A DNA stretch of 51,547 nucleotides from Candidatus Iainarchaeum sp. Its GTDB lineage: Archaea; Iainarchaeota; Iainarchaeia; JAADDC01. The stretch is from assembly GCA_030445695.1 (NCBI GenBank), contig JASUTF010000002.1, positions 1 through 51,547 on the forward strand. The letters run 5' to 3'. The translations under genes were made by a program, and so were the position numbers. Within the stretch, counting starts at the first letter, position 1. Every line of letters starts with the position of its first letter. The notes below the pieces were generated by a model, which made no database searches, had not been told where the DNA came from, and worked only from the letters and a program-made list of their open reading frames with translations. Positions 1 to 41,088 of this stretch are shown here, one piece after another.

Positions 1-491
1 ACGTCTACCATTTCAGCGGCCACTGCCGCCGCAGACCCGGAGGACGATCCTCCGGGAACCCTTTCAGTATCCCTGGGGTTTCTCGTGGGGCCGAAGTATG
101 AGAACTCTCCGGAAGAACCGCAGGCAAACTCGTCCATGTTTGTCTTTCCGACGATCACGCCGTTGTTCTTCAAAATGCGTTCAACCACCGTTGCGGTGTA
201 CGGTGGCACGTAGTTCTCCAGCATCTTTGAACCGCAGGTCATCCTCACGCCCTTGAGAGCGAAGTTGTCCTTTATTCCCCACACAAGACCGTAAAACGCC
301 TCACCCTTCCCCTGCTTTACGAGTTTATCCACCTCTTTTGCCTGCTCTCTGGCAAGCTCGAACGTTTTTGTGATGAACGCGTTTATCTCCCAGTCGCGGG
401 ACTCGATAATCTCGATCTTCTCCTCCAGGTGCTCCGACGGAAGGATATCTCCCGACTTCAGCCGCTGAACGAGTTCCTCTATCATGGGCAT
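1..491 (-). CDS. gatA: Asp-tRNA(Asn)/Glu-tRNA(Gln) amidotransferase subunit A, N-terminal part
   Basis: This is the amidase subunit of GatCAB. It releases ammonia from glutamine and passes it to GatB to amidate mischarged tRNA. About 163 codons are visible before the window edge cuts the gene. They contain the amidase-signature Lys in WGIKDN and the Ser-rich GGSSSGSAAA stretch that supplies the cis-Ser and nucleophile region. The chosen ATG at 491 overlaps the gatC stop by one base (TGATG), so translation is probably coupled; a second ATG lies two codons downstream. AspRS is encoded about 3 kb away, which suits a transamidation route to Asn-tRNA. In archaea GatCAB usually serves Asn because Gln uses GatDE, but that is family knowledge and is not shown here. 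Confidence 0.95.
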   Translation of the reverse strand, partial: MPMIEELVQRLKSGDILPSEHLEEKIEIIESRDWEINAFITKTFELAREQAKEVDKLVKQGKGEAFYGLVWGIKDNFALKGVRMTCGSKMLENYVPPYTATVVERILKNNGVIVGKTNMDEFACGSSGEFSYFGPTRNPRDTERVPGGSSSGSAAAVAAEMVD

Positions 492-769
492 CACAGGTTT
501 GGTGGGACCTTTGCATAGCGGTCCTTCTTCTCGGGGAACTGTTCCACAATGGCATCCGGATCCTCAAAGGGGTTTGAAGCGTCCTCACGGAACTCATTCT
601 CGTTTTCCGTCATGACTATGGGCTGTGCCTCGGCGAGCGGCAGTTCCTTTACCCTCTCGAGGAGCCGCAAAATATCGTTAAACTGCGGCAGGAGCTCGTT
701 GATCTCCTCCTCTGTGAGCGCGATGCGGGCGATCTTTGCGATGTGCTGCAACTCCTCCCTTGTTAGCAT
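491..769 (-). CDS. gatC: Asp/Glu-tRNA amidotransferase subunit C
   Basis: This small GatC subunit of 92 aa clamps GatA and GatB together. The N-terminus LTREELQHIAKIARIALTEEE is the usual amphipathic helical GatC start, and the C-terminal part carries the typical acidic, proline-containing tail ending in KVPPNL. The frame is open further upstream to 895, but that extension has no GatC similarity and runs into the end of the degV gene. The ATG at 769 is therefore chosen. It lies about 26 bp below a TATA-like TTTTTTAAAA (791-800), which fits leaderless transcription. The gene is followed directly by gatA with a one-base overlap. Confidence 0.93.
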   Translation of the reverse strand: MLTREELQHIAKIARIALTEEEINELLPQFNDILRLLERVKELPLAEAQPIVMTENENEFREDASNPFEDPDAIVEQFPEKKDRYAKVPPNL

Positions 770-809: not shown

Positions 810-1616
810 TCACTCCAGAAACGCCACGCCAAACGACCCGTAGCCGAGACGCGCTCCAATCGCGGGATCCACGCTGCAAACGACCACACGTTCACAGTTC
901 TCCCTTATCTCGCTTGCCATTCTATCGGCGTACTCGTTCCGCCCCAGAACGCCGGCCCAGACCTCTTTTTTACCCCTTATCAGATCCGCGAACTCCTGCA
1001 CGACTCGTTCCTGTCCCCTGACCGTTTTCCACAAATGGAACACGCCGTCCTTCACCACAAAGATGGGGTTAAGGCGCAGAAACTTTCCGATCTTGCCCAC
1101 AACGTTCGGCAACCTTCCGGAGCGGGCTGCCGCTTCCATATCGGCGACCACAAGGTATATTCTCACCCGATTAACGAGTGCTCTCAACTTTTGAAGGGCA
1201 TCTCCGATTGGGACCCCCTTCTCTGCCATCTCTTTCGCCCTTGCCACGAGTATTCCGGCACCTATGCTCCCTGTCAGCGAGTCCAGTACGTGTACCTCAA
1301 AGCCCTTCTTGGCGAGCATCTTCGCAGCGATCTCTGCCGACTTGAAGGTGCCGCTGAGCTTCGAGCTGATTGTGATGGCGAGTATGGGGAGGTCATTACC
1401 AAGGGACTCAAAGGCACGCATCCACTCCTTGACAGACGGTGCAGCAGTCCTTGCCCGTATCCCCTTTCTGGTGATGTCCAGCAGGGTATCCACAGTGAAA
1501 TCTACCTTGTCCTTCATGTCAACTATTCCGGCATAGACGTGCACAGGGACGAAGGGTATGTCCCATTCGGGCGGAAAATCGGCCGTGGAGTCGGTAATTA
1601 TGCGAAAACTTACCAT
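810..1616 (-). CDS. DegV family protein, FakB-like (copy 1)
   Basis: DegV/FakB proteins bind a fatty acid and present its carboxylate to the kinase FakA. This 268-aa protein has the family start ITDSTADFP, the TAAPS version of the TSQPS motif, ISSKLSGTFKSA, VLDSLTGSIGAG and the RSGRL segment, so the fold looks complete. The C-terminal motif is unusual. Most members have an H-x-GPG sequence, as in VVHAGPGAV of the second DegV in this window, but here it reads GARLGYGSFGVAF, with neither the His nor GPG. That His is thought to help hold the carboxylate in FakB. The ATG overlaps the end of fakA by 7 bp (ATGGTAA), so the two are translationally coupled. It could be a true FakB with altered ligand binding, or a partner subunit replacing the C-terminal domain missing from FakA. 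Confidence 0.88.
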   Translation of the reverse strand: MVSFRIITDSTADFPPEWDIPFVPVHVYAGIVDMKDKVDFTVDTLLDITRKGIRARTAAPSVKEWMRAFESLGNDLPILAITISSKLSGTFKSAEIAAKMLAKKGFEVHVLDSLTGSIGAGILVARAKEMAEKGVPIGDALQKLRALVNRVRIYLVVADMEAAARSGRLPNVVGKIGKFLRLNPIFVVKDGVFHLWKTVRGQERVVQEFADLIRGKKEVWAGVLGRNEYADRMASEIRENCERVVVCSVDPAIGARLGYGSFGVAFLE

Positions 1617-2491
1617 ATCTGATCAATCCTCTCCTGGACGATCTGACCGAAAGGCAGGAGGCGCTCCTTTACCTTCTCCGGATCTGTGCTGTGGATGTGC
1701 ACCTTCACCTTTCCGTGGCCTCCCACCACCACGATGGAGTCGCCGAGGTCCGCTATGGCGCCCCTTATCTCGTCGGCGGATGTGCCGTTGTTGGTCTCAA
1801 TCATGAAGTTCGTACAGTACAGTGCAGGACCGCCTCTTGACGTTTCGCGCTCGGCACGCATGCCACGGACACGGTATCCCTGAACATCGACGCCCAGGGC
1901 GTGCACAAATCCCTCAACGATGAGCGTGAATCCGTATGCACCGGAGTCGATGATCTTTGGCTTACCGAGCTTCTTCAGCATCTCCGGTGTCTTTTCCAGC
2001 GCCGAAAGAGCCGCCTGGTACGTGTGGTGGAGTATCTCCGGAACGGAGTTATACTGCCGGGCGAGCCGCTGGGCCGCCTCCGCGGTCTCACGCATCACCG
2101 TAAGTATGGTCCCCTCAACGGGGTTTGCCACCGCCTGATACGCCCAGTTCTTACCCTCGCCAAAGGCAGCCGCTACCTTCGTCCTGTCCAGCGCCGCCGC
2201 ATCGCCAATACCTTCCCGGAAGCCCCAGAAGAACTGGGAAAGGATGACCCCGGAGTTTCCGCGGGCACTCTCCAGGGCAGCATCGGCGACTGCCTCTGCA
2301 ACTTCACCGGCGTGTTCGCTGTCCACGTCCTTTACTGCTTCCCATATGCCCTTCATGGTGTTGTACATGTTCGTCCCGGTGTCCCCGTCTGCCACGGGGT
2401 AGACGTTTATGGCGTTTATGAACTCCATTTCCTTCTCTATGAGGTCCGTTGCAAGCTTGATGCCTTCTTTGAGGTGTTTTCCGTTCATCAT
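1610..2491 (-). CDS. fakA: Fatty acid kinase catalytic subunit, DhaL/DAK2 domain (short FakA)
   Basis: FakA phosphorylates fatty acids bound to FakB to give acyl-phosphate. Residues 1-205 form a DhaL domain with the Mg-ATP loop NVYPVADGDTGTNMY, the RGNSGVILSQ segment and NPVEGTILTV. Residues 215-293 match the middle domain, keeping a Cys (LYCTNF) and the HIH pair (KVKVHIHSTDP) that bind zinc in the bacterial enzyme, from memory. Bacterial FakA is about 550 aa. This one ends at 293 aa, right after the middle domain, and so lacks the C-terminal domain. It lies between a plsY gene (ATGA overlap) and a degV gene (7-bp overlap). The operon context makes fatty acid kinase far more likely than dihydroxyacetone kinase. 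Confidence 0.88.
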   Translation of the reverse strand: MMNGKHLKEGIKLATDLIEKEMEFINAINVYPVADGDTGTNMYNTMKGIWEAVKDVDSEHAGEVAEAVADAALESARGNSGVILSQFFWGFREGIGDAAALDRTKVAAAFGEGKNWAYQAVANPVEGTILTVMRETAEAAQRLARQYNSVPEILHHTYQAALSALEKTPEMLKKLGKPKIIDSGAYGFTLIVEGFVHALGVDVQGYRVRGMRAERETSRGGPALYCTNFMIETNNGTSADEIRGAIADLGDSIVVVGGHGKVKVHIHSTDPEKVKERLLPFGQIVQERIDQIW

Positions 2492-3078
2492 CCCTTTCCA
2501 CCCCAGTAATGCTTTGGCAGTTCGCCCCTCACCAGCAGTTCTGCCTTTTCACGGTAACGCAGCCAGACAGGTATGAGTGCGAGCACAAGGGCCTCCGGAA
2601 CGCTGCCGAACAGCACGTAGTAGATCGCAGGTGTAAAAATATGGCCGAGCATTGCCCCCACGGCAATATAACCGCTCACTGCGTATCCTACGGCCCAGAG
2701 GGCTGCCCAAATTACTGCGAACTTCCAGTCGAGGTAGAGCGCGGACGCGAGCATGACCGCGATGCCCCTTCCGCCCCGGAAACGCGTCCAAACTGGATAG
2801 TTATGGCCCAGCACGATGAAGAACGGGGCGAGCCACAGCGCGGAAGGGAAGTAGTTCTGCACGATCCACAGCGCCAGGATCGCCTTGAGGACATCAAGAA
2901 CCACGACGGCGACAAAGAGTATCTTTGAACCGGTGGCCCTGTACGTGTTGAGTGCCCCGACGTTTCTGCTGCCGACTTCCCAGATGTTCTTGCCGGTGGC
3001 CAGCTTCACCGCAATGTACGCCGTGGGAATGGACCCCAGCAGATACGATATCAGAGCTGCCGCCGCGTACATGTTCAC
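2488..3078 (-). CDS. plsY: Acyl-phosphate:glycerol-3-phosphate acyltransferase PlsY (copy 1)
   Basis: PlsY is a membrane enzyme that moves the acyl group of acyl-phosphate to glycerol-3-phosphate to make lysophosphatidic acid. This 196-aa copy has YLLGSIPTAY in the first helix, motif 1 as GSRNVGALNTYR (usually GSGNxGATNxxR), motif 2 as GHNYPVWTRFRGGRG (usually GGKG) and a weaker motif 3, YREKAELLVRGE. The normally conserved Lys of GGKG is Arg here. The strongly hydrophobic segments and length match the family. It overlaps plsY copy 2 upstream and fakA downstream by 4 bp each. An archaeal version using glycerol-1-phosphate cannot be excluded from sequence. Confidence 0.9.
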   Translation of the reverse strand: MNMYAAAALISYLLGSIPTAYIAVKLATGKNIWEVGSRNVGALNTYRATGSKILFVAVVVLDVLKAILALWIVQNYFPSALWLAPFFIVLGHNYPVWTRFRGGRGIAVMLASALYLDWKFAVIWAALWAVGYAVSGYIAVGAMLGHIFTPAIYYVLFGSVPEALVLALIPVWLRYREKAELLVRGELPKHYWGGKG

Positions 3079-3710
3079 ACCTTGTCCATTGTTATGGAAC
3101 GCTTTCCTTTGTGGGAAAACCGCTGTTCTTCGAGTTTGCCCTGTAGCATGAGCACGATATTATCGCGATGGCTGTAGAGCACGGCAAGGGCGGCAAACGT
3201 CACGTATGTGGTCATAAGCGGGTCTGCGATGAGGGCGTGGAGCGGGATCGCCGTCACAATGGTCACGATGTTGGCGAGGCCCGTCATCTGCGTCAGAAGC
3301 ACCACCACGAACCACGTCGTGATCATGACGGGGAGCGGGCCCCACGTGCCTGTGGCCGTAACGAGGGCGAGGTAACCGCCCGTGATCGTGGCGAATCCCT
3401 TTCCGCCCCTGAACTTCAGGAAGATGGAGAATACAGCACCGATAATGGCAAACATCGCCGCAAGAAGGGCGTAGTGGATTCCAGCATATGCATGCGCGAG
3501 GTATGCCGGCACGAATCCCTTCAACAGATCCAGGAGCATGACGAGGACTCCATAGCCCATGCCGAGGTTGCGGGCGACGTTGGCACCGCCGATGTTGCCG
3601 CTGCCCCTCTTTGTGATATCAATGCCCTTCGCTCTACCCACTAAGTAGCCCCAGGGTATCGAGCCGCTGATGTACCCGGCAAGGGCCCATATCACCGCAT
3701 TCACGTCCAT
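3075..3710 (-). CDS. plsY: Acyl-phosphate:glycerol-3-phosphate acyltransferase PlsY (copy 2)
   Basis: This second PlsY, of 211 aa, is the first gene of the operon. It has YISGSIPWGYLVGR, a near-perfect motif 1 (GSGNIGGANVAR), GGKG within FLKFRGGKGFAT, and motif 3 HRDNIVLMLQGKLE. The His that normally opens motif 2 (GHxFPxFL) is replaced by Ala (IIGAVFSIFL). Copy 1 keeps that His but has lost the Lys, so the copies differ at complementary conserved positions. Several hydrophobic helices place it in the membrane. The ATG at 3710 lies about 31 bp below a TATA box (3738-3746) and starts a four-gene chain (plsY-plsY-fakA-degV) with overlaps at every junction. Confidence 0.9.
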   Translation of the reverse strand: MDVNAVIWALAGYISGSIPWGYLVGRAKGIDITKRGSGNIGGANVARNLGMGYGVLVMLLDLLKGFVPAYLAHAYAGIHYALLAAMFAIIGAVFSIFLKFRGGKGFATITGGYLALVTATGTWGPLPVMITTWFVVVLLTQMTGLANIVTIVTAIPLHALIADPLMTTYVTFAALAVLYSHRDNIVLMLQGKLEEQRFSHKGKRSITMDKV

Positions 3711-3737
3711 CTTAACCGATCTCCGTAGGAAAACAGC

Positions 3738-3747
3738 TTATAAAAAT
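3738..3747 (-). promoter_or_regulatory. TATA-like box of the plsY-plsY-fakA-degV operon
   Basis: TTTTTATAAG on the minus strand is centred about 31 bp upstream of the plsY copy 2 ATG. No other promoter-like box is obvious inside the four overlapping genes, so the operon probably has one promoter. Confidence 0.6.
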
Positions 3748-3776: not shown

Positions 3777-5036
3777 TCACGGGGTCAGGATGTCCGGCGT
3801 CCTCGGGTATGGCATGGCCTCCATGATCTTGTCCAGATTGAGCAGAGCCAGCGTCAGACGCTCCACACCCATTCCGAAGCCGCCGTGAGGCGGGAAGCCA
3901 TATTTGAACATCTCCAGGTACCAGCCGAACGCCTCCGGACGCATGCCCTTCGCGATCATCCTCTTCCGCAGCTTCTCCGGGTCGTTCTCACGTGGTCCGC
4001 CGGAGGAGAGTTCAAGACCGTTCTCTCCGGGCGCGAGGAAGTCCATCTTCTCTGCAAAGAAAGGATCCTCCTCCCTGAGTTTGTAGTAGAAGGCACACTC
4101 TGTTTCCGGGAACTCGGTGACGAAGAAGGGCACGTCGAAGTGGCTGCAGAGCTGCCTCTCTTCCGGTGCGCCGAAGTCGTCGCCCCTCTTTATGTCCACG
4201 CCGTCTGATCGCAGGAGTTCGATGGCCTCGTCGTAAGATATCTTCTCGTACTTGTTTGGAACGGGGACTTCCTCTATACCCAGGAGCTTGAGCTCGTCCG
4301 GCACCTCCCTGTTCAGACGCTCTGCAGCCGTCTTATATATATCAAACTGAATGTCCATGAGATCCTTTTTCGTGACGAAGGCGGCCTCCACGTCAATCTG
4401 CCAGAACTCCGTCAGGTGCTTCCTTGTTCTGCTCTTCTCCGCTCGGAACGACGGCGCTATGGAGAACACGCGTCCAAGGGCAGGAACGAGCGATTGTTTG
4501 TACAGCTGGGCGGACTGTGCAAGGAACGCTTCCCTGTCAAAGTAGACCAGCGGGAACAGTTCTGCACCGCCTTCCGTTGCCGTTGCGATGATTATGGGGA
4601 AGAACGCCGCCTCGTGGAAGCCCCACTTACGGAGAACCTGGCGTGCGGCGTCAACGATGACGCTCTTCGCCTTGAATATGGCTGCTATACGGGGTTTCCG
4701 TAGATCAAGGTAACGATATTCCAGCCGGGTGGGGAACTCCGCGGGGGTTTTTTCGGTTAAATCTATGGGGGTCGGCTCGGAGTTTGCAATAACTTTCACG
4801 TCTTTCGCCACGAACTCGCGGCCGTTGGGCGCCTTCTTGGACTCTACCCACTCGCCCTGGATCTCCAAAAGCGTTTCGGGGTTATACTTACCCGCTTCCT
4901 CCAGAACTTCGTCAGGCACGTTGCCCTTCTTCACGACCACCTGCTCAATTCTGTTTTCAGGGAACGTTCGTATGAGTATGAACTTGAGCTTGCCTATGTC
5001 ACGAACGTTCCAGACCCAGCCGCGGATTGTTTCCAT
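3777..5036 (-). CDS. aspS: Aspartyl-tRNA synthetase, archaeal type
   Basis: This class IIb synthetase charges tRNA with aspartate. The 419-aa protein has an N-terminal OB anticodon-binding domain beginning METIRGWVWNVRDIGK, class II motif 2 (FRAEKSRTRKHLTEFW) and motif 3 (GGFGMGVERLTLAL). Length and the absence of a bacterial insertion domain fit the archaeal/eukaryotic type. The frame stays open to 5129, but that extension has no synthetase similarity, so the ATG at 5036 is chosen; a GTG three codons upstream (5045) is 28 bp below a TATA-like box and is an alternative. GatCA nearby suggests, but does not show, that it may be non-discriminating between tRNA-Asp and tRNA-Asn. Confidence 0.94.
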   Translation of the reverse strand: METIRGWVWNVRDIGKLKFILIRTFPENRIEQVVVKKGNVPDEVLEEAGKYNPETLLEIQGEWVESKKAPNGREFVAKDVKVIANSEPTPIDLTEKTPAEFPTRLEYRYLDLRKPRIAAIFKAKSVIVDAARQVLRKWGFHEAAFFPIIIATATEGGAELFPLVYFDREAFLAQSAQLYKQSLVPALGRVFSIAPSFRAEKSRTRKHLTEFWQIDVEAAFVTKKDLMDIQFDIYKTAAERLNREVPDELKLLGIEEVPVPNKYEKISYDEAIELLRSDGVDIKRGDDFGAPEERQLCSHFDVPFFVTEFPETECAFYYKLREEDPFFAEKMDFLAPGENGLELSSGGPRENDPEKLRKRMIAKGMRPEAFGWYLEMFKYGFPPHGGFGMGVERLTLALLNLDKIMEAMPYPRTPDILTP

Positions 5037-5068
5037 TCGTCCCACCGGGTAAGAACGGGAAGGGAAGG

Positions 5069-5092
5069 CATAAAAACGCTTTTCATTAAAAG
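5069..5092. promoter_or_regulatory. Back-to-back TATA-like boxes of aspS and the DHH gene
   Basis: The minus-strand box TTTTTATG (about 5069-5076) serves aspS. The plus-strand box TTCATTAAAA (5082-5091) is centred 26 bp above the DHH ATG at 5114. Unlike several other divergent pairs in this window, the two genes have separate boxes. Confidence 0.5.
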
Positions 5093-5113
5093 CGGGCGAA
5101 GGGATATTATAAC

Positions 5114-6355
5114 ATGGAGGAGGCTGCACGACGTCTCATCGAGTCCATGCCCGAAAAACTACGAAAAGAGCACGAGAAGATTATTTCTGCGTTGAAGGAC
5201 GCCGTAGCGGAGGGCAAAAGCATCGTTGTCTTTGCAGACACGGACGCAGACGGCGCGTCGGCGGAGGCGTGGCGCATAATCGCCAAGAAACTAGGAGCAA
5301 GGGACGAAAACATAGAAGTGCGCCACGTTGACCGAAGCAACGTGAAGTTCGACCGCGACGCCTTCTATATAGTCCACGACATCACGCTCCTGCCCGCACA
5401 CCTGCAGAACGTGGCGGCGGGCGCGAAGATAGTGAACATCGACCACCACGGTCCAAGATTGGGCGAAGACGAAAGTTACGACACTGTTCTGAACCACCCA
5501 GCAGTTGTGGCGGTTGCCAACCCCTTTGCTACTGAAGTTGATAGCCCTGGCAAGACCAAAATGAGCAGGGAAGATAGTTCCCGCCTTTATGCTTTCAATC
5601 CCTCCGCCCAGCTCGTTCACATTGCCCATCGCGTCGGTGCAAATGACATGATATACAAACTTGCGGCCATTGGCATCGTTGGGGACAGGGCGCACCAATA
5701 CTCCGATGTGGCGAGAGAGTTCGCGGAAGCGGTGGCAAGGAAAACGAGCGCCACGATTGAGGACCTCGCAAAGTTGGCGGGACTCTTCGAGCTACAAGAG
5801 AACTTCCCTGGAAAGGTGACCGCCGAGGAGATAAAGGCGGATATACTTGCAGGGCTGCGGGAAAATGACCTCAAGAGCATACCGCGTAGCAAAAAGCTCA
5901 GGGAATTGCTGGAGAAGAAGGAGAAGGTGCTCGAGAAGTATCTGGAAAGGGTGAAACGCGGAGAGTACGAAAAGGAAGAATTGGAGGTCAATGGCAAGCC
6001 CGTGCGTATTATTCTAATTCACGTGGATGACGATGACGCAAAGGAGGTGCAGAAGATAAAATCCGACTTGGGTTCAGCACTGCTCGACAAGTTTTCGAAA
6101 GATCCAACCCCAACCGTTGTTCTTGCGGGCCAGTGGGAGCCGGGAGACGTTGTAAACTACCGCATCGGCGTGAACGGAGCGGGCCAGGATATTGGGTTGC
6201 ACGCCGGAGAAATCGCAAGGACACTCTCATCAAGGTTCGAACTTCCCGGCGGCGGACACGCAGCGGTTGGTGGTTCAAAAATCCCGCACAGCGAGAAAGA
6301 ACGGGCAATGGAGCACATAAAGGACGTTTTGAAAAGCATCTACGGGCAACACTAA
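5114..6355 (+). CDS. DHH-family phosphoesterase with DHHA1 domain (RecJ/GAN-like)
   Basis: This 413-aa protein belongs to the DHH phosphoesterases, which include RecJ-type single-strand exonucleases and archaeal GAN. The N-terminal half has motif I as FADTDADGASA, motif III as NIDHHGPR and motif IV as GIVGDRA, giving the usual Asp/His metal cluster. A charged helical region at about 250-300 leads to a C-terminal DHHA1 domain with LPGGGHAAVGG. The ATG is 26 bp below a TATA box, so translation is probably leaderless. Another DHH gene follows at once. A replisome-associated GAN-like nuclease is one possibility; an oligonucleotide or cyclic-dinucleotide phosphodiesterase is another. Confidence 0.85.
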   Translation: MEEAARRLIESMPEKLRKEHEKIISALKDAVAEGKSIVVFADTDADGASAEAWRIIAKKLGARDENIEVRHVDRSNVKFDRDAFYIVHDITLLPAHLQNVAAGAKIVNIDHHGPRLGEDESYDTVLNHPAVVAVANPFATEVDSPGKTKMSREDSSRLYAFNPSAQLVHIAHRVGANDMIYKLAAIGIVGDRAHQYSDVAREFAEAVARKTSATIEDLAKLAGLFELQENFPGKVTAEEIKADILAGLRENDLKSIPRSKKLRELLEKKEKVLEKYLERVKRGEYEKEELEVNGKPVRIILIHVDDDDAKEVQKIKSDLGSALLDKFSKDPTPTVVLAGQWEPGDVVNYRIGVNGAGQDIGLHAGEIARTLSSRFELPGGGHAAVGGSKIPHSEKERAMEHIKDVLKSIYGQH

Positions 6356-11450: not shown

Positions 11451-12374
11451 TTAACCCTGTGGCCTCTTCCCGCCGATCCCCGTGACGAGCTTGAAGACGG
11501 CGGCAACCACGAATGCAACCCACTCTGCAAAGAGCGTTATGATCGAGTAGAGCATCGCGCCGACAAACGCGTAAATGTAGTGCACGTTCTCGAAAACAGA
11601 GCGGAAAACAGGCATCTCGCGAATCTGCCGCTCTATGGCCGACCTCATAACATTCTCGTCCGGGGACTTAATGCTCAATGCGAGCGCCTCCCGGATGCCC
11701 TTCTTTATGCCCTCATACTGCTCAAGATACTGGTTGATGAGCTCCTGTTGCTGCTCCGGCGAGAGGGAATCCCAGTTGGGCACCGAACTCTTGACGCTTT
11801 CTATGATCTTTTCACGCTCCTCGGGAGTTATGCCCTCGGGAATGATCTGGTTCACGTCCAGAATGTTTTTCTGCGAACCCGCACCGGTGAGTGCCAGTTC
11901 AACTATGCGGTCCACGAGGAGGGGCTGGAGGGTGCCAGCCATTGTGGAACCGTGATATATGAGAACAACGAGCACTAGGGCAAAACCCAAACTCTTGGGC
12001 GACGAAACGGTGTGCCAGACCCCCATCTTGCACGGATCATCGCTGGAGACGGGCAGGATACCCCCTGCAACGGTCGCCACGATAAAGGCAGAGACAATTG
12101 GATCCAGACCCAGCAGCACCGCGCCCAGGACCGCAACGGTCAGTTCAACAGCCCAGTAGATGACCCTCTGGCGTCTGCTGTCGGAGGACCAGCGGAGAAG
12201 GAAGACGGACAGCAGAACAGCAGTTAGGGGAATAACAAGACCGGCTGCGGACCGGAGGAGCATCATATCGGGAATTACAATGGATTCAGGTGAAAACGAC
12301 ACGCCAGTGACAAGTATCTCCGCAAGGACCGTGAGAACCACCGCAGCAACCGCCAGTACGTATCGATCGCCCAT
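11451..12374 (-). CDS. Polytopic membrane protein of unknown function
   Basis: This 307-aa protein has about four or five hydrophobic helices in the first 150 residues. A soluble, charged segment of about 100 residues follows (containing PEGITPEEREKIIESVKSS and SPEQQQELINQYLEQYEG), and two closing hydrophobic helices end the protein. I do not recognise the family. It follows map by 6 bp with GGTGAGGGAG just ahead of its ATG, so it is probably the third gene of the degV-map unit. The soluble loop between membrane halves is the main feature. Confidence 0.7.
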   Translation of the reverse strand: MGDRYVLAVAAVVLTVLAEILVTGVSFSPESIVIPDMMLLRSAAGLVIPLTAVLLSVFLLRWSSDSRRQRVIYWAVELTVAVLGAVLLGLDPIVSAFIVATVAGGILPVSSDDPCKMGVWHTVSSPKSLGFALVLVVLIYHGSTMAGTLQPLLVDRIVELALTGAGSQKNILDVNQIIPEGITPEEREKIIESVKSSVPNWDSLSPEQQQELINQYLEQYEGIKKGIREALALSIKSPDENVMRSAIERQIREMPVFRSVFENVHYIYAFVGAMLYSIITLFAEWVAFVVAAVFKLVTGIGGKRPQG

Positions 12375-13283: not shown

Positions 13284-14090
13284 TCACTCGACAAAAAGCA
13301 TACTGACCGCTCCCGGGCCGGCGTGCACCACGATAACGGGGCTAAGGAGCACCTTCTCCTCTACTTTGATACCCCTATAGTTCAAGTGTTCCTCCAGTGC
13401 CTTTCCGTCGTCCCCTCCAGGCGCGTAGGCCATTAAAACGGACTCTGAGCCCGCGAGAGCAGCCATCTCCGCCCATAGTTTGTTCTTGCGAACCGTGTTC
13501 TCAAGATCCACCCTGCCCTCACGGATCGTCAGTATCGGGCGGATACCCACTATCTTGGCCAGTGTCGCCTTGAACGGGTCGAGACGTCCCCCTGCAACAA
13601 GGTAGTCAAGCGTGGGGACTGCAAAGTATATTCTGATCCTGCTCCTCAGCGCCTCAAGGGCGGGTATCACTTCCTCAATGGTTTTCCCTTCGTCCCGCAG
13701 GCGCAGGGCCTCACGGACGAGAATGCCGATGCCCGCGGACACGGACAGCGAGTCGAAAACGTGGAGATTTACTCCCTTCTTTTTCATGAGGTTTGAAGCG
13801 ATAAGGGCTGCGTTGTACAGGCCGGAGAGCCGGGATGATAACGTTATGTAAAGCACGTCTCCTTCCATCCCCTCCACGGCGGACATGATCTGCTTTGGCG
13901 ACGGCTGACTCGTCTTAACCTTGCCCGGCTTCATCTCGCGGATATAACTGAGCACGTCTTCCTTTGATATGGTTCCCGGATACGTGTACTCCTCTTCGCC
14001 TATGAAAACATTGATGGGAACCTTGAGCACGTCCTCCGGCGTTCCGCTGAGCAGGTCGGCACCGCCGTCTACCACGATTTCAAACGCCAC
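13284..14090 (-). CDS. DegV family protein, FakB-like fatty-acid-binding protein (copy 2)
   Basis: This 268-aa DegV protein keeps every motif expected of FakB: KTSQPSP, ITLSSRLSGLYNAA, VFDSLSVSAGIG, DYLVAGGRL and the C-terminal VVHAGPGAV with the His-x-GPG signature that copy 1 lacks. The N-terminal motif is VVDGGADLL instead of TDSSADL. An ATG at 14111 exists, but it overlaps the TATA box (14110-14118). The GTG at 14090 is 24 bp below that box and gives the normal DegV N-terminus, so it is chosen. It may carry fatty acids for the FakA encoded at 1610. The downstream map gene is in the same unit. Confidence 0.87.
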   Translation of the reverse strand: MAFEIVVDGGADLLSGTPEDVLKVPINVFIGEEEYTYPGTISKEDVLSYIREMKPGKVKTSQPSPKQIMSAVEGMEGDVLYITLSSRLSGLYNAALIASNLMKKKGVNLHVFDSLSVSAGIGILVREALRLRDEGKTIEEVIPALEALRSRIRIYFAVPTLDYLVAGGRLDPFKATLAKIVGIRPILTIREGRVDLENTVRKNKLWAEMAALAGSESVLMAYAPGGDDGKALEEHLNYRGIKVEEKVLLSPVIVVHAGPGAVSMLFVE

Positions 14091-14109
14091 GTTCCAATAT
14101 GGCACGATC

Positions 14110-14118
14110 ATTTAAAAC
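14110..14118. promoter_or_regulatory. Shared bidirectional TATA box
   Basis: ATTTAAAAC lies 24 bp from the minus-strand GTG at 14090 and 26 bp from the plus-strand ATG at 14140. One box can therefore direct two leaderless divergent transcripts, and its position decides the degV start. Confidence 0.55.
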
Positions 14119-33715: not shown

Positions 33716-34546
33716 TCAGGGCAAAAGGATTAAAGCACCTGCAAGGAACCAGAGCGCCAGAAGGAACATGATCGCCGTGTGATGCCAGAAGATGCGGTCA
33801 ACGAACTCCTGTGCGTGCAGATCTCCCTCCTTCGTCTTCTGGTACTGGGGAACTGTGTAAATGACAGCACCGAGTAGACCAAAAATAAACGCAATTACGG
33901 AGCGAGAGAGAACGTAGAGCGTTGGGACCGCAAAGAACATGGCAACAAGAACGAAGAACAGGCCAACAGGGTCCGTCAGAGCGTGCTTAGCCTGCTTCCT
34001 GAGTTTGTAGACGATGTGACCCAACGCGTAGAGCGTCGCGTACTCGAGGAAAACAGAAGAAGGCCAAGTCCCTGGAAAAGAACTGTAAAGAGCAATCCAG
34101 CCCGCGACGAAGTTCAAGTACTCAACGAGGACAAGAAGCACCTGGCGCGGAAGAACAGAGCGGACGTGAGAGCGTAGGTTGTTCAGGAAGACTGCGAAGA
34201 ACGTGACAATACCAAGTAGGGGAGAGTAAAGCGCAGTAAGGAGAACACCAAGCGCGAAGAGGTTAGTCGCGAGGAAGAGATACTCCTTTTCGGTTGCCCG
34301 CCCACGTGCTAAAAGTTTTGCAGGATATACGGCCTTCGTTTTATCATCCTCCAAATCTAACAAGTCGTTGTAGAAGTACGTTGAAAGGTACGTGATAAAG
34401 AAGAGCAAGAAACCAACGATTCCAGACAAATTTGGAGCGTTTCCGAGAATTGTAGCAATGAAGACAACAAATGCAAGCATCTGGAGTTTCAAAACAAACT
34501 TTGGAATTATCAAATCTCTGAAAAGGGAGAGGATATCCATGCGCAC
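33716..34546 (-). CDS. UbiA-like prenyltransferase family protein (copy B)
   Basis: This 276-aa membrane protein with about eight helices has the first Asp-rich motif of UbiA enzymes, YFYNDLLDLEDDKTKAVYP (N-D-x2-D-x3-D). That motif binds Mg-prenyl diphosphate. The second Asp motif expected in the middle is not evident; its place holds NLRSHVRSVLPRQ. In archaea the family includes the enzyme adding the second geranylgeranyl chain to lipids, but this pair is divergent. It follows copy A by 3 bp, so they probably act together. Confidence 0.78.
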   Translation of the reverse strand: MRMDILSLFRDLIIPKFVLKLQMLAFVVFIATILGNAPNLSGIVGFLLFFITYLSTYFYNDLLDLEDDKTKAVYPAKLLARGRATEKEYLFLATNLFALGVLLTALYSPLLGIVTFFAVFLNNLRSHVRSVLPRQVLLVLVEYLNFVAGWIALYSSFPGTWPSSVFLEYATLYALGHIVYKLRKQAKHALTDPVGLFFVLVAMFFAVPTLYVLSRSVIAFIFGLLGAVIYTVPQYQKTKEGDLHAQEFVDRIFWHHTAIMFLLALWFLAGALILLP

Positions 34547-34549
34547 ACC

Positions 34550-35485
34550 TCACAGCATAAAGTGAAGGATTTCGTTCTGGTACCGATCAATACTAGAAAG
34601 AACCACTGTCATCTGGGCGGGTGGCTGAACTGGTAGCGGCTCGATAGGAATATTTGCGTACACGATGGCAGCACCAATCAGCATGAGCATCACAGTCCCT
34701 ATGACAAGGGCTACGTCGTGGGCCTTGAATATCTTCTCCATACCCGCCTCTACGTTATTTGCGTATCTCGCAGCCTGTACACCAACGGCGAGTACATAAA
34801 GTGCAGTAAAAACGATTAGCGCAATAAAGTGTGCTGTGCTTTCCGCGGCAAGCGGGATGCTAAACACCGCTGAGACGAACAAGACACCTGCAAGAACCCA
34901 GACCCACCACTGGCGAACCGCCCAGAGTAAAGGTTTTGATCTTAGTTTGTATAGAGCGTGAGATAGAGCGTACGCGGAGGAGTACGCTGCGAAGATTGGT
35001 ACTGCAAGCCAAGGGATCAAAGAACCGTAAAGTGCAACCCAGAAGCCCTCGAAGTTCAAAAACTCCACCACAGCGAGGAGAACTTCCCGAACAAATAAGT
35101 TCTTGACAACTGTACGCGCATGGTTAACCAGGATGGCTAACGCTGCAACCACCGCAAGAAGCGGCGAATACAGGTACGTTGATAGGAGCCCCGCAACAGG
35201 AACCCATGCGAGGAGGTGTACATAGTCTTTCTCCGTTGCTTTTTCGTGGCGCAGTAGTTTCTCTGATGGCATATACGCCCGCTTTTTGTCCGATTTGTAG
35301 TCGATAAGATCGTTGTAGTAGTAAACGGACGAATACGTGAAGAGGAACAAAACAACGCCGATGAAAGATTTCCAAGAGGGGGTCAGTGCGAAATAAGTAG
35401 CCACGAAGATCGTCACCGCGATCATGTTGAACTTGCGCTTCAGTATGGATCCCCAGAAATCACGGAAATATGCACTCCAATCCAC
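34550..35485 (-). CDS. UbiA-like prenyltransferase family protein (copy A)
   Basis: This 311-aa paralogue of the next gene has about nine helices and the first Asp motif YYYNDLIDYKSDKKRAYMP. As in copy B, the second Asp motif is missing (NHARTVVKNLFVREV in its place). A C-terminal extension of about 40 residues (IPIEPLPVQPPAQM onward) is absent from copy B. The two share the pattern KxxEYLNF/VEFLNF and ALYSS/ALYGS, which shows recent common ancestry. They could form a heterodimer. Catalysis is uncertain without the second motif. Confidence 0.76.
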   Translation of the reverse strand: MDWSAYFRDFWGSILKRKFNMIAVTIFVATYFALTPSWKSFIGVVLFLFTYSSVYYYNDLIDYKSDKKRAYMPSEKLLRHEKATEKDYVHLLAWVPVAGLLSTYLYSPLLAVVAALAILVNHARTVVKNLFVREVLLAVVEFLNFEGFWVALYGSLIPWLAVPIFAAYSSAYALSHALYKLRSKPLLWAVRQWWVWVLAGVLFVSAVFSIPLAAESTAHFIALIVFTALYVLAVGVQAARYANNVEAGMEKIFKAHDVALVIGTVMLMLIGAAIVYANIPIEPLPVQPPAQMTVVLSSIDRYQNEILHFML

Positions 35486-37499: not shown

Positions 37500-37502
37500 T
37501 TC
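37486..37502. repeat. 17-bp direct repeat, left copy
   Basis: GGCGGGGGCAACAGTTC overlaps the stop codon of the large secreted-protein gene. It matches GGCTGGGGCAACAGTTC at 41137-41153 in 16 of 17 bases and in the same orientation. The two copies bracket the gene. Confidence 0.6.
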
Positions 37503-40500
37503 ACTCCAATTCTATTAAGTCGTTAAACGGAGCGTATGCGGGGATAAATCCGTATTCGTTTCCTCTCTGAACGAGGTAGTAGTTGACCGGCTCCTGGGCA
37601 GTTTCGCCGATGAACTCTCCGAAGGGATCCCAAGTTGATGTGCCGGGAAGATTGGAGGTAGCACGCGTGCACCATGAGGGCAGGCATGAATCCGTTTTCT
37701 TTAGATACTCTCCGCGGCCGATACCCCAAACGTATTTCGGAGATTCACAGAACGGGTCAACGCGTGTTGAGAACCCGCGGATGGAGTAGTCATAGAAAAA
37801 GTACTTGTTCCCCCTATTCACCGCCAAGAGGATCTTCCTTTTGCTCTTTAGCCCGCCCAGATCCCAGTAAACGGCGTACGGATACATTTCAGGAGGTTCG
37901 GGGAGTATGTTGGAGTAGGCAAACCACATGGCGTAATATCCAGCCGGGCTGATGCGAATATCGGTCAGTTCCTCCGAATTCACCGTCCAGAACTTGCCGT
38001 TCATGGACAAGGTCAAAAGATGGACGGTGCATTCCTCAAACGTTGGCCCGAGTTCCATCCGCTCCTCCACGGTATGGTCATAGTGGATGTTCAGTTCCTC
38101 GTCTCCGAATCGAAGGGAGCCCACACAGAACCCGAAATCGTCGCAACTGGAGGACAGGGTGGCTGGCAGGACGTTGCCGTCCACCAGCGCGTATGTTTTT
38201 TCAGGGTGTGCGAAAGAGTGCTTGGGAAATATCTTGCTGTAGCTGGCTGGCACGTGAAGGACGTGGAGTTCTTTGATTCCCTTTTTCTGAGCGTATGCCA
38301 TGGACAAGAGTAGAAGGCGGTTGTCGCAGAGAACGCGGTTGCAGCAGTATGGTGTTTCACAACCGGAGGTGGAGGAAGAGAACTCGTAGAGCGAGTCCTG
38401 TGGGAAGATATAGGCGATGCGGTCGAGCGCTGTTTTGTCTGCATACCTGGAGAAGTAGACCACCGGCCTCAGGTAGGGAATGGGAGAGTAGTAGATGCCC
38501 TCGCTGTCGATGGTATTCCTGATGGCGTTATACTCGTTGTAATGAGGGAAATAATAGGAATCGAAAGAGACGTATGGGGATTCGTCGATGACGTGAGCCG
38601 GCGGGAATGCAAAGTTCGGTGCATCTGTCGGGCGGGCAGGAAGCCGGGCAGCGTCCCTGATGGAGAAGCGGATTACGTATTTCCCGTCCCCGTCCTTGAG
38701 CGGGGTGCGTATCTCGTAGAGGTGGTCGCAGTTTAGCTCGTTGTATATGCTAGGATCAAATACCGGGTTTCTGCCCGTGCAGGCGTTGAAGGTCAATTTA
38801 TATCCCGTATCGAACTCCTTGATGCCCATAGCACGATTTCCATTTAGTTCATAGATAGATACAGGGATCGGAAAGACCGTTGTATTCACCAAATCAAGGC
38901 CGTCGAGGTAGAGAATCTCCCGGGGATCGTAGGGAGCTCCGTAAAAGTTGTACTCCAAGCTAAGTACCGCTGTGCGCAATATGCCATTTGTGGGTTCTAG
39001 ATCTGGCGCTGCAAAAACCCTCAAATTGTGAACATCTCCTCTAAGGTAAGCAATGCGATTCGTTATATACCGCGGATCCGAGATTCTACATGAACCGTGT
39101 CGCGACACATCTTCAGTATCGCCGTAAATGTGTAGTTTGATACGCTCTCCAGGTCTTGCAGAGCCCCACCCCATTATCGTCACTAAACTATCCCCACCAT
39201 CTACAGTAATGATTTTGGCTCGCAACAAATTCGAGATAACAGTGCCAAACACCGTCTTGACACCCAGACACTTGGGATTAAATGATTGATAGGCGAAAGG
39301 CGTTACCCACGGCTGATCATTTATGTCCACCGGTACTGGATCTGTGGGGTCCACGCGCTCGATTTCATAGCAGCCAGAGAGATTATTGAAAGTCACCATT
39401 GTGTTACCCTCAGCATATTTCAGAGGCAGCTTTCCGGGCGGTATTATTTCCACACTAAGACGAACGCGAGCCACGAAAAGACCCGTTGTGCCCGTCTCTT
39501 CTATTATCTTGGGATCAGATACTCTTGGGTAACACCAAATACTAACCATACGGGCATAACCATCACAAACATCGCCTTTCTTGGGTCTCACCGGATTCGA
39601 AAAAGTACAATAAAAATCATAGCCATGAGTTTCAGAAACCAGCCGAATATATGCCATGGTTCCATCTTTCAGGAACGCACGATAAGGATGTCTCTTGATG
39701 TAATCAGCAGCAGAGTCGAAAGTATCAAAAACGAGTGCTTCAGTATTGGGAATAAACAATTCCTCGGGATAGATCTCAGGCCCAGCTATCGCGTTTATAT
39801 CGTTCGTACACAAATACCATGTGGCCCTGCTGGCCAAATCTAATACTTTAATGAGGATCGGGGATGGGTACCTTGTCCCGATGAGTGATAAGTTAGGATA
39901 TAAAATAACCGGCCTAAGTACTAGCTTCGGCGGAAGGTAAGCATTTGATCCGACACTTCCATCAGTCAGGTCTTGGTAAGTGTTGTTCTCTGAACTCCCT
40001 TCACCCCAGAATGCGGATTCTGATGCATTTACCTCCTCCTCGAAGTAGATGCCGTCGCCGGAAACGGTGAGCTCGCTGTTGAACTCGATGACGTTGGCAT
40101 CGAGCAGTATTTCGCCCTCACGCAGGTGGTAGACGGAGGTGAAAGTGTTGCCGTCCACGGTGAAGTTGAGCTCAGCGACAGTGTCTCTCAGTCCGACTAG
40201 GGAGATGTATGCCACTCCGTCGCCGGCGATGACGTCAACGCAGTAGGAATCGTTGCACTGCATCCTGTCGGAGAGTATAGGGATTCTCAGTTCTCCGGCA
40301 GGGGTTTTAATGGTTAACCACTCGCCACGGTGTTTAGGGCCGAAAACCTGGAGAAATGCACAGTTTTCCGTATCTATGCGCCTGCCCTCATCGGCGAGGA
40401 TGAAGTTCACATCCGCGGGGGTGCCCACAAAGCGTGCGGGACCATCAATACTGGCGTAGTTCCCGTTGCGCCAGGCAATGGCATAGTATCCGCCCTGTGA

Positions 40501-41088
40501 AACACCGAAGATTGGGGTTCCGTCCAGTTTGAAGGTGAATGCATCCTTCCCGAGGTAATCCAAGGTGTCTAGCAGGTCCTGACAGGTGAGGGAAACGGGT
40601 TCGCGGACTTCAACCATTGGAATGGTTCCGCCATACAGCCGAACCAGCCAGGAGCCACCGGCGTCTGCCACGAAGAGGAAGGAGTTTTTGTCAATCTCGT
40701 TGACGTCACCGACGACCAAGGACGTATACATGCAACTACCGCCGTCCGATGAGAAGATGCACGCCCAGGTTGGCTGGGAGAATTCTATCTCGTAATACTG
40801 TGGCGGTTCCTCCGGCTGTAAAAAGACGGTTTTCGTGTCCCGGGAGACGGTGGCCGGGGTTCTTCCTTCGGCGATTACGGTCGCGGGCACGGGGATATCA
40901 TAGTTACCGTCGCTGGGGATGAAGAGGGTGTTTCCCTCGGCGTAGACCACCGCACCGTCGGGAGGGACGTTAAGGATTTCAACGCGGGTAAAGTTGGCCT
41001 TTGAGGGCGTTTGCAGGATGCTGGGCCGGCAAAGAATGATTGCTACTGATAGGAGAAGCAGGACGAGTGCGAGCATACTTTTCCTCAT
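37501..41088 (-). CDS. Very large secreted surface protein, Cys-containing, unknown function
   Basis: The 1195-aa protein begins with a signal-like helix (MRKSMLALVLLLLSVAIILC); its Cys could be a lipid attachment or cleavage site. Residues 30-95 resemble a PEGA-type beta domain (EILNVPPDGAVVYAEGN). The rest is beta-rich, full of Tyr, Asp and Pro, with many Cys in pairs (CMYTS, CNDSYC, CETPYCCNRVLC, DDFGFC) and several N-glycosylation sites. No C-terminal anchor is seen. The coding strand looks more A/T-rich in the middle (about 39000-39980) than at either end. The ATG is 28 bp below AATTTAATTAATTC with GAGGAGA ahead of it. I cannot assign a function; an envelope or adhesion role is a guess. 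Confidence 0.75.
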   Translation of the reverse strand: MRKSMLALVLLLLSVAIILCRPSILQTPSKANFTRVEILNVPPDGAVVYAEGNTLFIPSDGNYDIPVPATVIAEGRTPATVSRDTKTVFLQPEEPPQYYEIEFSQPTWACIFSSDGGSCMYTSLVVGDVNEIDKNSFLFVADAGGSWLVRLYGGTIPMVEVREPVSLTCQDLLDTLDYLGKDAFTFKLDGTPIFGVSQGGYYAIAWRNGNYASIDGPARFVGTPADVNFILADEGRRIDTENCAFLQVFGPKHRGEWLTIKTPAGELRIPILSDRMQCNDSYCVDVIAGDGVAYISLVGLRDTVAELNFTVDGNTFTSVYHLREGEILLDANVIEFNSELTVSGDGIYFEEEVNASESAFWGEGSSENNTYQDLTDGSVGSNAYLPPKLVLRPVILYPNLSLIGTRYPSPILIKVLDLASRATWYLCTNDINAIAGPEIYPEELFIPNTEALVFDTFDSAADYIKRHPYRAFLKDGTMAYIRLVSETHGYDFYCTFSNPVRPKKGDVCDGYARMVSIWCYPRVSDPKIIEETGTTGLFVARVRLSVEIIPPGKLPLKYAEGNTMVTFNNLSGCYEIERVDPTDPVPVDINDQPWVTPFAYQSFNPKCLGVKTVFGTVISNLLRAKIITVDGGDSLVTIMGWGSARPGERIKLHIYGDTEDVSRHGSCRISDPRYITNRIAYLRGDVHNLRVFAAPDLEPTNGILRTAVLSLEYNFYGAPYDPREILYLDGLDLVNTTVFPIPVSIYELNGNRAMGIKEFDTGYKLTFNACTGRNPVFDPSIYNELNCDHLYEIRTPLKDGDGKYVIRFSIRDAARLPARPTDAPNFAFPPAHVIDESPYVSFDSYYFPHYNEYNAIRNTIDSEGIYYSPIPYLRPVVYFSRYADKTALDRIAYIFPQDSLYEFSSSTSGCETPYCCNRVLCDNRLLLLSMAYAQKKGIKELHVLHVPASYSKIFPKHSFAHPEKTYALVDGNVLPATLSSSCDDFGFCVGSLRFGDEELNIHYDHTVEERMELGPTFEECTVHLLTLSMNGKFWTVNSEELTDIRISPAGYYAMWFAYSNILPEPPEMYPYAVYWDLGGLKSKRKILLAVNRGNKYFFYDYSIRGFSTRVDPFCESPKYVWGIGRGEYLKKTDSCLPSWCTRATSNLPGTSTWDPFGEFIGETAQEPVNYYLVQRGNEYGFIPAYAPFNDLIELE

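Follow-up and report, generated by a model that had tools for sequence, protein, structure and literature searches.

A conserved operon linking a short fatty-acid kinase to PlsY-like proteins in a DPANN archaeon, with counterparts in Asgard archaea

Introduction

Archaeal membrane lipids are isoprenoid ethers built on sn-glycerol-1-phosphate (G1P), while those of bacteria are fatty-acid esters built on G3P. This lipid divide is central to discussions of early evolution and eukaryote origins. To our knowledge, no acyl donor system was known in archaea before, and the presence of PlsY alone in an archaeal genome is therefore ambiguous. A locus in Candidatus Iainarchaeum sp. raises the question of whether a bacterial-type fatty-acid kinase (Fak) could supply such a donor, since two plsY genes form an overlapping run with genes for FakA and a DegV/FakB-family protein. 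The window referred to below is the whole 51,547-nt stretch of DNA analyzed, and its relevant features are as follows.

3777-5129, minus strand: aspS, for an aspartyl-tRNA synthetase of the archaeal non-discriminating type, located 5' of the operon (NF003483, 3e-124; TIGR00458, 8.5e-110)
3737-3746, minus strand: TATA-like box TTTTTATAAG, upstream of plsY1
3075-3710, minus strand: plsY1, 211 aa
2488-3078, minus strand: plsY2, 196 aa
1610-2491, minus strand: fakA, short form, 293 aa
810-1616, minus strand: degV1, 268 aa
491-769, minus strand: gatC, an in-frame ORF with a matching 93-aa gene in relatives, probably co-transcribed
3-494, minus strand: gatA, truncated by the contig end, about 75-79% identical to the full-length neighbor in same-genus relatives
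13284-14111, minus strand: degV2, a second DegV/FakB (PF02645, 7.3e-55)

Organization and conservation of the operon

The cluster plsY1-plsY2-fakA-degV1 (3710-810, minus strand) sits between archaeal aspS and gatCAB, with overlaps of 4, 4 and 7 nt at the plsY1/plsY2, plsY2/fakA and fakA/degV1 junctions. The sequence-only reading had described four overlapping genes here, and their positions and order hold, all on the minus strand, with Pfam matches for each. It had also proposed one transcription unit behind one TATA box. A TATA-like sequence (TTTTTATA) does begin 36 nt 5' of the plsY1 ATG (chance expectation ~0.003 per 66 nt), and a comparable T-rich box occupies the same position in three other same-genus genomes (G076, G078 and G079). 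We infer that the four genes are co-transcribed, and the unit probably continues into gatC-gatA-gatB.

A gene-neighborhood search recovered the order aspS-plsY1-plsY2-fakA-degV-gatC-gatA in separately assembled genomes from both genera of the host family, some showing part of this run only, with contigs ending there; AspS is 86-88% identical to that of same-genus relatives. Among the ten family genomes sampled, which are incomplete (88.6% completeness for the source genome), PlsY was found in eight and FakA in seven, and neither was found in any of 77 genomes elsewhere in the phylum. G076 and G079 give additional weak Dak2 matches, that of G079 falling within a chaperonin gene. The bacterial type of the genes and the incompleteness of the metagenome-assembled genome could suggest a contaminating or chimeric contig, a reading whose probability is negligible: the flanking genes are archaeal, in keeping with the archaeal context first proposed, the FakA sequences stand apart from the sampled bacterial ones, and within the phylum PlsY and FakA are restricted to the host family. 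Because gene order is conserved across separate assemblies from two genera, both chance and chimerism are excluded.

The fatty-acid kinase and its DegV partners

FakA contains a DhaL-type kinase domain (aa 32-196; Dak2, PF02734, 8.8e-43) with the DxDTGxN and GNSG ATP-site motifs, followed by a middle domain (aa 225-291; FakA-like_M, PF21645, 4.5e-18) in which Cys226, His265 and His267 are the equivalents of Cys240, His282 and His284. Both sets of residues are invariant in all seven host-family sequences and in nearly all Asgard sequences. These profiles, together with a phmmer match to the FakA of 7W7H (3e-50), uphold the initial assignment, to which the short form of the protein must be added: the FakB-docking FakA-C domain was not found in the 293-aa protein, the profile covering 291 of 530 positions, and the score of 296 bits lies below the NCBIfam YloV cut-off for full-length FakA (396 bits). 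The domain content thus points to a protein of the FakA_NL type rather than full-length FakA. In Staphylococcus aureus, the FakA_NL construct phosphorylates fatty acids although it has no C domain, so that the docking domain is dispensable for catalysis there, and the N and L domains also function in trans (PMC9136124). The archaeal protein shares with FakA of S. aureus and S. suis the DhaL and middle domains, the ATP-site motifs, the Cys-His-His set and a DegV/FakB partner, but lacks FakA-C, as a natural counterpart of the FakA_NL construct, and differs in having degV directly 3' of fakA with a 7-nt overlap. Homology to DhaL might instead suggest a dihydroxyacetone kinase-like enzyme acting on a substrate other than a fatty acid. 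This is very improbable given the FakA-like middle domain with its Cys-His-His set, the DegV partner, the linkage to PlsY, and a match to the FakA profile TIGR03599 (4.6e-88) far exceeding that to DhaL (7e-8).

DegV1 is a clear member of the DegV family (PF02645, 3.7e-52; TIGR00762, 5.9e-56), as had been read from the operon, but its role as the Fak partner is less straightforward. Compared with the FakB carboxylate network (Thr62, Ser95, Ser/Gly171, Arg173 and His270, FakB1 numbering), alignments show that it keeps Thr57, Ser88, Ser166 and Arg168, while position 256, which falls at the fatty-acid carboxylate-binding position, is changed from His to Arg in the source genome only, its orthologs retaining His. 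DegV2, present also in three same-genus genomes, is canonical at all network positions. Because of the substitution in DegV1, DegV2 is more likely to be the canonical FakB of the source genome. DegV1 may conceivably be a detached FakA-C domain, but in an unrooted DegV tree, with modest support and long branches that meet, it does not fall into the principal group of C-domains from bacterial FakA.

Two non-equivalent PlsY paralogs

Both PlsY proteins belong to the family (G3P_acyltransf, PF02660, 2.6e-39 for PlsY1 and 8.5e-36 for PlsY2), as first read, yet they are not equivalent, and neither has the full canonical active site. PlsY1 (phmmer to 5XJ5, 4.1e-25) scores 135.9 bits, slightly below the TIGR00023 cut-off of 137.2. 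It shares with Aquifex aeolicus PlsY (aaPlsY, 5XJ5-5XJ9; numbering used throughout) the fold, with a TM-score of 0.67-0.70 to 5XJ5 for a low-confidence predicted structure, and the complete glycerol-phosphate clamp (Ser35, Arg45, Lys104, His177 and Asn180), but differs by T41A, H92A and S142N. It is thus PlsY-like by fold and acceptor pocket, and a putative acyltransferase. PlsY2, by contrast, retains His92 but carries T41L, K104R, H177Y and N180K (AlphaFold model pLDDT 80; TM-score of about 0.8 to 5XJ5). Since Lys104, His177 and Asn180 are replaced by Arg, Tyr and Lys, it is regarded as a PlsY-fold homolog and not classed as a G3P acyltransferase. In aaPlsY, Thr41 and His92 are the sole side chains touching the acyl-phosphate, the T41A and H92A mutants retain 4.8% and 17% activity, and H177Y retains 0.03% activity on G3P (PMC5700162). 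The Thr41/His92 pair is Ala/Ala in PlsY1 and Leu/His in PlsY2, and is complete in neither.

Each paralog forms its own supported clade, and PlsY2 orthologs in both genera keep the same substitutions, so that PlsY2 as a mere duplicate or decaying gene is rejected. Four more PlsY-like genes, with motifs lost, are present in the source genome.

Partner lipid genes and the likely acceptor

The source genome contains the archaeal ether-lipid genes for G1P dehydrogenase and GGGP synthase, adjacent to one another and coexisting with the operon, and UbiA homologs are found in all ten family genomes. PlsC (PF01553), noted at first as missing from the window, was found neither in the rest of the genome nor in any of the ten family genomes. 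Searches of these ten genomes for a G3P supply through GpsA (PF07479) or glycerol kinase (PF00370) gave no match. The acceptor is therefore likely to be G1P, which, unlike G3P, is probably on hand in the host, and this modifies the earlier reading. Bacterial PlsY was recently shown to use G1P (PMC13400652).

Relatives in Asgard archaea and bacteria

The system is not unique to the source archaeon. FakA occurs in 45 of 227 Asgard genomes, Heimdallarchaeota carry fakA-degV-plsY operons, with a single PlsY and mostly no PlsC, and two other Asgard genomes encode a PlsY::FakA fusion with an adjacent DegV. Heimdallarchaeota PlsY retain the phosphate clamp, while His177 and Asn180 are altered too in the PlsY fused to FakA. 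Asn142, at the 2-OH-binding position, is common to PlsY1 and Heimdallarchaeota PlsY and absent from the bacterial PlsY compared. These operons and fusions are a strong sign that FakA and PlsY share one pathway in archaea. In fakA-plsY pairs from Bacteroidota, Neomarinimicrobiota, Spirochaetota and Deferribacteres records, plsY likewise directly follows fakA, but FakA there measures about 590 aa and ends in a DegV-like domain, and the one PlsY is canonical.

PlsY and PlsC homologs were already reported in Asgard archaea, in both cases as bacterial-type acyltransferases alongside archaeal ether-lipid genes, as here; no Fak was found in the text read from these reports, whereas Fak is here linked or fused to PlsY with PlsC mostly absent (PMC6737245, PMC6431249). 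No earlier report of an archaeal Fak, or of a linked archaeal Fak-PlsY system, was found in the open literature searched, in keeping with the original impression that such an operon was undescribed.

The PlsY tree supports the paralog clades, but the trees of FakA and PlsY are too weak, with bacterial sampling limited to the best 80 matches, to name a transfer donor. Constraining all archaeal FakA together gave a fit equal to the free tree (AU p 0.59), which does not reject a single origin and does not thereby prove one.

Proposed pathway and alternatives

The reading that we favor, with moderate confidence, is a predicted fatty-acid-activation module feeding acyl transfer by PlsY1 to glycerol phosphate. 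A DegV/FakB protein would bind a scavenged fatty acid, whose carboxyl group would be phosphorylated by the short FakA, composed of the DhaL kinase domain and a zinc-binding middle domain, and PlsY1 would move the acyl group from the acyl-phosphate onto glycerol phosphate, most likely G1P from the host G1P dehydrogenase. The product would be a glycerol phosphate with one ester-linked acyl chain, made in parallel with the usual ether lipids. PlsY2, conserved beside PlsY1, no longer has the glycerol-phosphate grip but has kept His92 of the acyl-phosphate site, and probably spends acyl-phosphate on another acceptor or aids PlsY1. We infer from sequence the substrates, reaction direction, G1P use, PlsY2 role and product fate. 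The loss of Thr41 and His92 from PlsY1 and of the carboxylate-network His from DegV1, and the failure to find PlsC, count against this module.

Two other readings of its function are unlikely, though each has some evidence in its favor. PlsY1 could acylate G1P and PlsY2 the second hydroxyl, completing an ester-lipid route that needs no PlsC, CoA or acyl carrier protein and yields diacyl or mixed ether/ester lipids; the PlsY2 acceptor would then be the monoacyl product or geranylgeranylglyceryl phosphate. The adjacent, overlapping plsY genes in both genera, with complementary losses and separate supported clades, and the family-wide absence of PlsC fit this route, but H177Y leaves aaPlsY almost inactive on G3P, we know of no PlsY that acts at sn-2, and the Heimdallarchaeota operon has one PlsY and mostly no PlsC. 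Alternatively, the module may no longer make membrane phospholipid, and may recycle or detoxify fatty acids, or use acyl-phosphate to modify another acceptor, be it a protein, a sugar or the head group of an ether lipid, as the incomplete sites of both PlsY, the additional motif-less PlsY-like genes and the altered His177 and Asn180 of the FakA-fused Asgard PlsY might indicate. The entire phosphate clamp of PlsY1, kept also in Heimdallarchaeota, would however be pointless without a glycerol-phosphate-like acceptor.

A broader proposal is unlikely as well: that two distant archaeal groups, the DPANN family and Asgard lineages, couple a domain-reduced fatty-acid kinase to PlsY to make ester lipids on G1P, that in the DPANN family two specialized PlsY carry out the two acylations independently of PlsC, CoA and acyl carrier protein, and that the change of Ser142 to Asn is an adaptation to G1P.

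Significance

What seems to be new is a conserved archaeal Fak-PlsY operon, whose gene set recurs in Asgard archaea, in places as one fused protein. Together with the Asgard PlsY::FakA fusions, it supplies a candidate acyl donor for archaeal PlsY, leads one to expect particular products, either acyl-G1P or mixed ether/ester lipids, and makes the lipid divide directly testable in this tiny uncultured archaeon. The operon suggests that a tiny DPANN archaeon may make membrane or signaling lipids from the fatty acids of surrounding bacteria.

Gene order and genomic setting

The cassette plsY1-plsY2-fakA-degV1 occupies positions 3710-810 of the window's minus strand, within a longer run of genes.

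Genes of the run, in order of transcription
aspS, 5129-3777, minus strand, non-discriminating AspRS, first gene of the run, before plsY1
plsY1, 3710-3075, minus strand, strong Pfam and NCBIfam scores
plsY2, 3078-2488, minus strand, strong Pfam and NCBIfam scores
fakA, 2491-1610, minus strand, strong Pfam and NCBIfam scores
degV1, 1616-810, minus strand, strong Pfam and NCBIfam scores
gatC, 769-491, minus strand, after degV1
gatA, 494-3, minus strand, incomplete, cut by the contig end

Coordinates, family matches and overlaps (4, 4 and 7 nt within the cassette) agree with the sequence-only reading of four overlapping genes behind a TATA-like box, which precedes plsY1 at 36 nt; a comparable T-rich box sits at the equivalent place in three further genomes of the genus. 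The flanks are archaeal, with the non-discriminating AspRS and, further off, archaeal-type methionine adenosyltransferase and glutamate dehydrogenase.

The window's genome comprises 29 contigs (664 kb, completeness 88.6%). Among 87 genomes of the phylum, Dak2 matches above cut-off occur in 7/10 genomes of the window's family and PlsY in 8/10, each with 0/77 elsewhere. The neighbourhood plsY-plsY-fakA-degV was recovered in both genera of the family, where separately assembled genomes keep the order aspS-plsY1-plsY2-fakA-degV-gatC-gatA, a contig end falling inside the run in several of them. All four cassette proteins share mostly 38-67% identity with orthologues in both genera. A chimeric contig is ruled out by this conserved order in separate assemblies and by the confinement of FakA and PlsY to the family.

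Proposed fatty acid activation by FakA and DegV

The encoded proteins suggest a pathway in which a fatty acid would be bound by FakB/DegV, converted by FakA and ATP into acyl-phosphate, and transferred by PlsY1 to glycerol phosphate, giving monoacyl glycerol phosphate. The window FakA (293 aa) consists of a DhaL domain and a FakA-like middle domain with nothing beyond, whereas bacterial FakA has about 550-590 aa. An equally truncated S. aureus construct, FakA_NL, has kinase activity and binds FakB about 10-fold more weakly, and the N and L domains function even as separate proteins (PMC9136124). In alignment the ATP-site motifs and Cys-His-His are invariant, the latter corresponding to the essential zinc ligands Cys240, His282 and His284 (PMC11617999).

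The window encodes two DegV proteins, DegV1 (810-1616) and DegV2 (13284-14111). Of the FakB1 carboxylate network, DegV1 retains in alignment four residues, Thr, Ser, Ser and Arg (Thr62, Ser95, Ser171, Arg173; PMC8892158, PMC9136124), and has Arg at a position that is His in FakB and in its own five orthologues. Every network position is canonical in DegV2, which makes it the safer choice as this genome's FakB candidate. The degV2 gene is also present in three further members of the genus; from the second genus DegV1 alone was recovered, and there the His is preserved. A 307-aa protein without Pfam match (11451-12374) lies close to an M24 peptidase and degV2, and a homologue is also close to degV2 in another genome of the genus, G078.

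Two divergent PlsY paralogues

Relative to Aquifex aeolicus PlsY (aaPlsY; PDB 5XJ5-5XJ9), PlsY1 retains the glycerol-phosphate clamp (Ser35, Arg45, Lys104, Asn180) and His177, and in PlsY1 and every full-length orthologue Ala replaces both Thr41 and His92; in aaPlsY no side chains other than these two touch acyl-phosphate (PMC5700162). PlsY2 is its mirror image, retaining His92 and carrying Lys104Arg, His177Tyr and Asn180Lys in all orthologues; in aaPlsY, H177Y leaves 0.03% activity (PMC5700162). The AlphaFold model of PlsY2 (pLDDT 80) matches PlsY crystal structures with TM 0.74-0.81, and the less certain PlsY1 model (pLDDT 66) retrieves the same five structures. The two form separate supported clades in an unrooted tree with a biased bacterial sample. 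Given these clades and the conserved, opposite residue losses, PlsY1 and PlsY2 are old, non-redundant paralogues. PlsY2 may acylate another acceptor, and is a possible stand-in for PlsC.

The window's genome, G000, encodes another four small PlsY-like membrane proteins, all lacking the catalytic motifs (L044:6112-6516, L044:7159-7677, L045:6386-6724 and L046:1152-1817, on contigs 12, 13 and 15). The gene on contig 13 directly follows the PheRS beta gene, as does its G078 counterpart.

Glycerol phosphate supply and the acceptor

The search of the rest of the genome proposed in the sequence-only reading found GGGP synthase (PF01884, 2e-57) immediately adjoining sn-glycerol-1-phosphate (G1P) dehydrogenase (PF13685, 2.6e-24) on contig 26. 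UbiA prenyltransferases, the superfamily that includes DGGGP synthase, occur in 10/10 family genomes. Profile searches of these ten incomplete MAGs found no PlsC (PF01553), GpsA (PF07479) or glycerol kinase (FGGY_N, PF00370), each profile giving matches in bacterial control genomes. With G1P dehydrogenase present and GpsA and glycerol kinase not found, G1P is the only glycerol phosphate with an identifiable synthesis route, the search for a G3P source covering these two enzymes. The window also holds a tandem pair of weak UbiA-family prenyltransferase-like genes (33716-34546, 34550-35485) and an ORF of 1195 aa without any Pfam match (37501-41088).

G1P would be the preferred acceptor of PlsY1: the genome encodes a source of it, the search gave none for G3P, and bacterial PlsY uses both glycerol phosphate enantiomers in vitro (PMC13400652). 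PlsY1 has Asn at the position of Ser142, a 2-OH contact in aaPlsY; Heimdallarchaeota PlsY shares this replacement (local motif LANIVT or similar), and aaPlsY and nine bacterial PlsY compared have Ser. The 2-OH is where G1P departs from G3P, which makes Ser142Asn a concrete candidate adaptation to the acceptor. Across 7,288 homologues analysed in a published study, Asn is outside the three commonest residues at position 142.

Asgard relatives and novelty

After the family itself, the next-best FakA relatives are from Heimdallarchaeota (37-39% identity), where a short FakA of similar length is followed by degV and then a PlsY with intact clamp; PlsC was not found in 6/7 Heimdallarchaeota genomes searched. 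FakA profile matches occur in 45/227 genomes of the Asgard phylum. Two Asgard loci (L205:2717-4513, L207:5098-6855) encode a single protein of about 585-600 aa, PlsY N-terminal and then FakA (DhaL and middle domains), with degV overlapping downstream, and two other Asgard genomes (L203, L204) have the order fakA-degV-plsY. G101 (L198, L208, L209) shares with about two dozen further Asgard genomes a FakA split over separate genes that lie far apart: two encode proteins with a DhaL domain (about 214 and 227 aa), and one encodes the middle domain on its own (about 105 aa). In several bacterial phyla plsY follows a fakA longer than the window's. Both the PlsY::FakA fusion and the recurring linkage argue strongly that in archaea FakA supplies PlsY.

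PlsY and PlsC have been reported in Asgard and other archaea (PMC6431249, PMC6737245), one paper detecting no PlsY outside Loki- and Thorarchaeota. Searches of openly accessible literature, with few subscription papers or preprints among it, turned up no account of Fak in archaea, Asgard included, in line with the earlier impression that no linked archaeal Fak-PlsY operon had been described. The protein families are known; what appears new is the domain of life, the reduced, linked and fused form, and the altered active sites.
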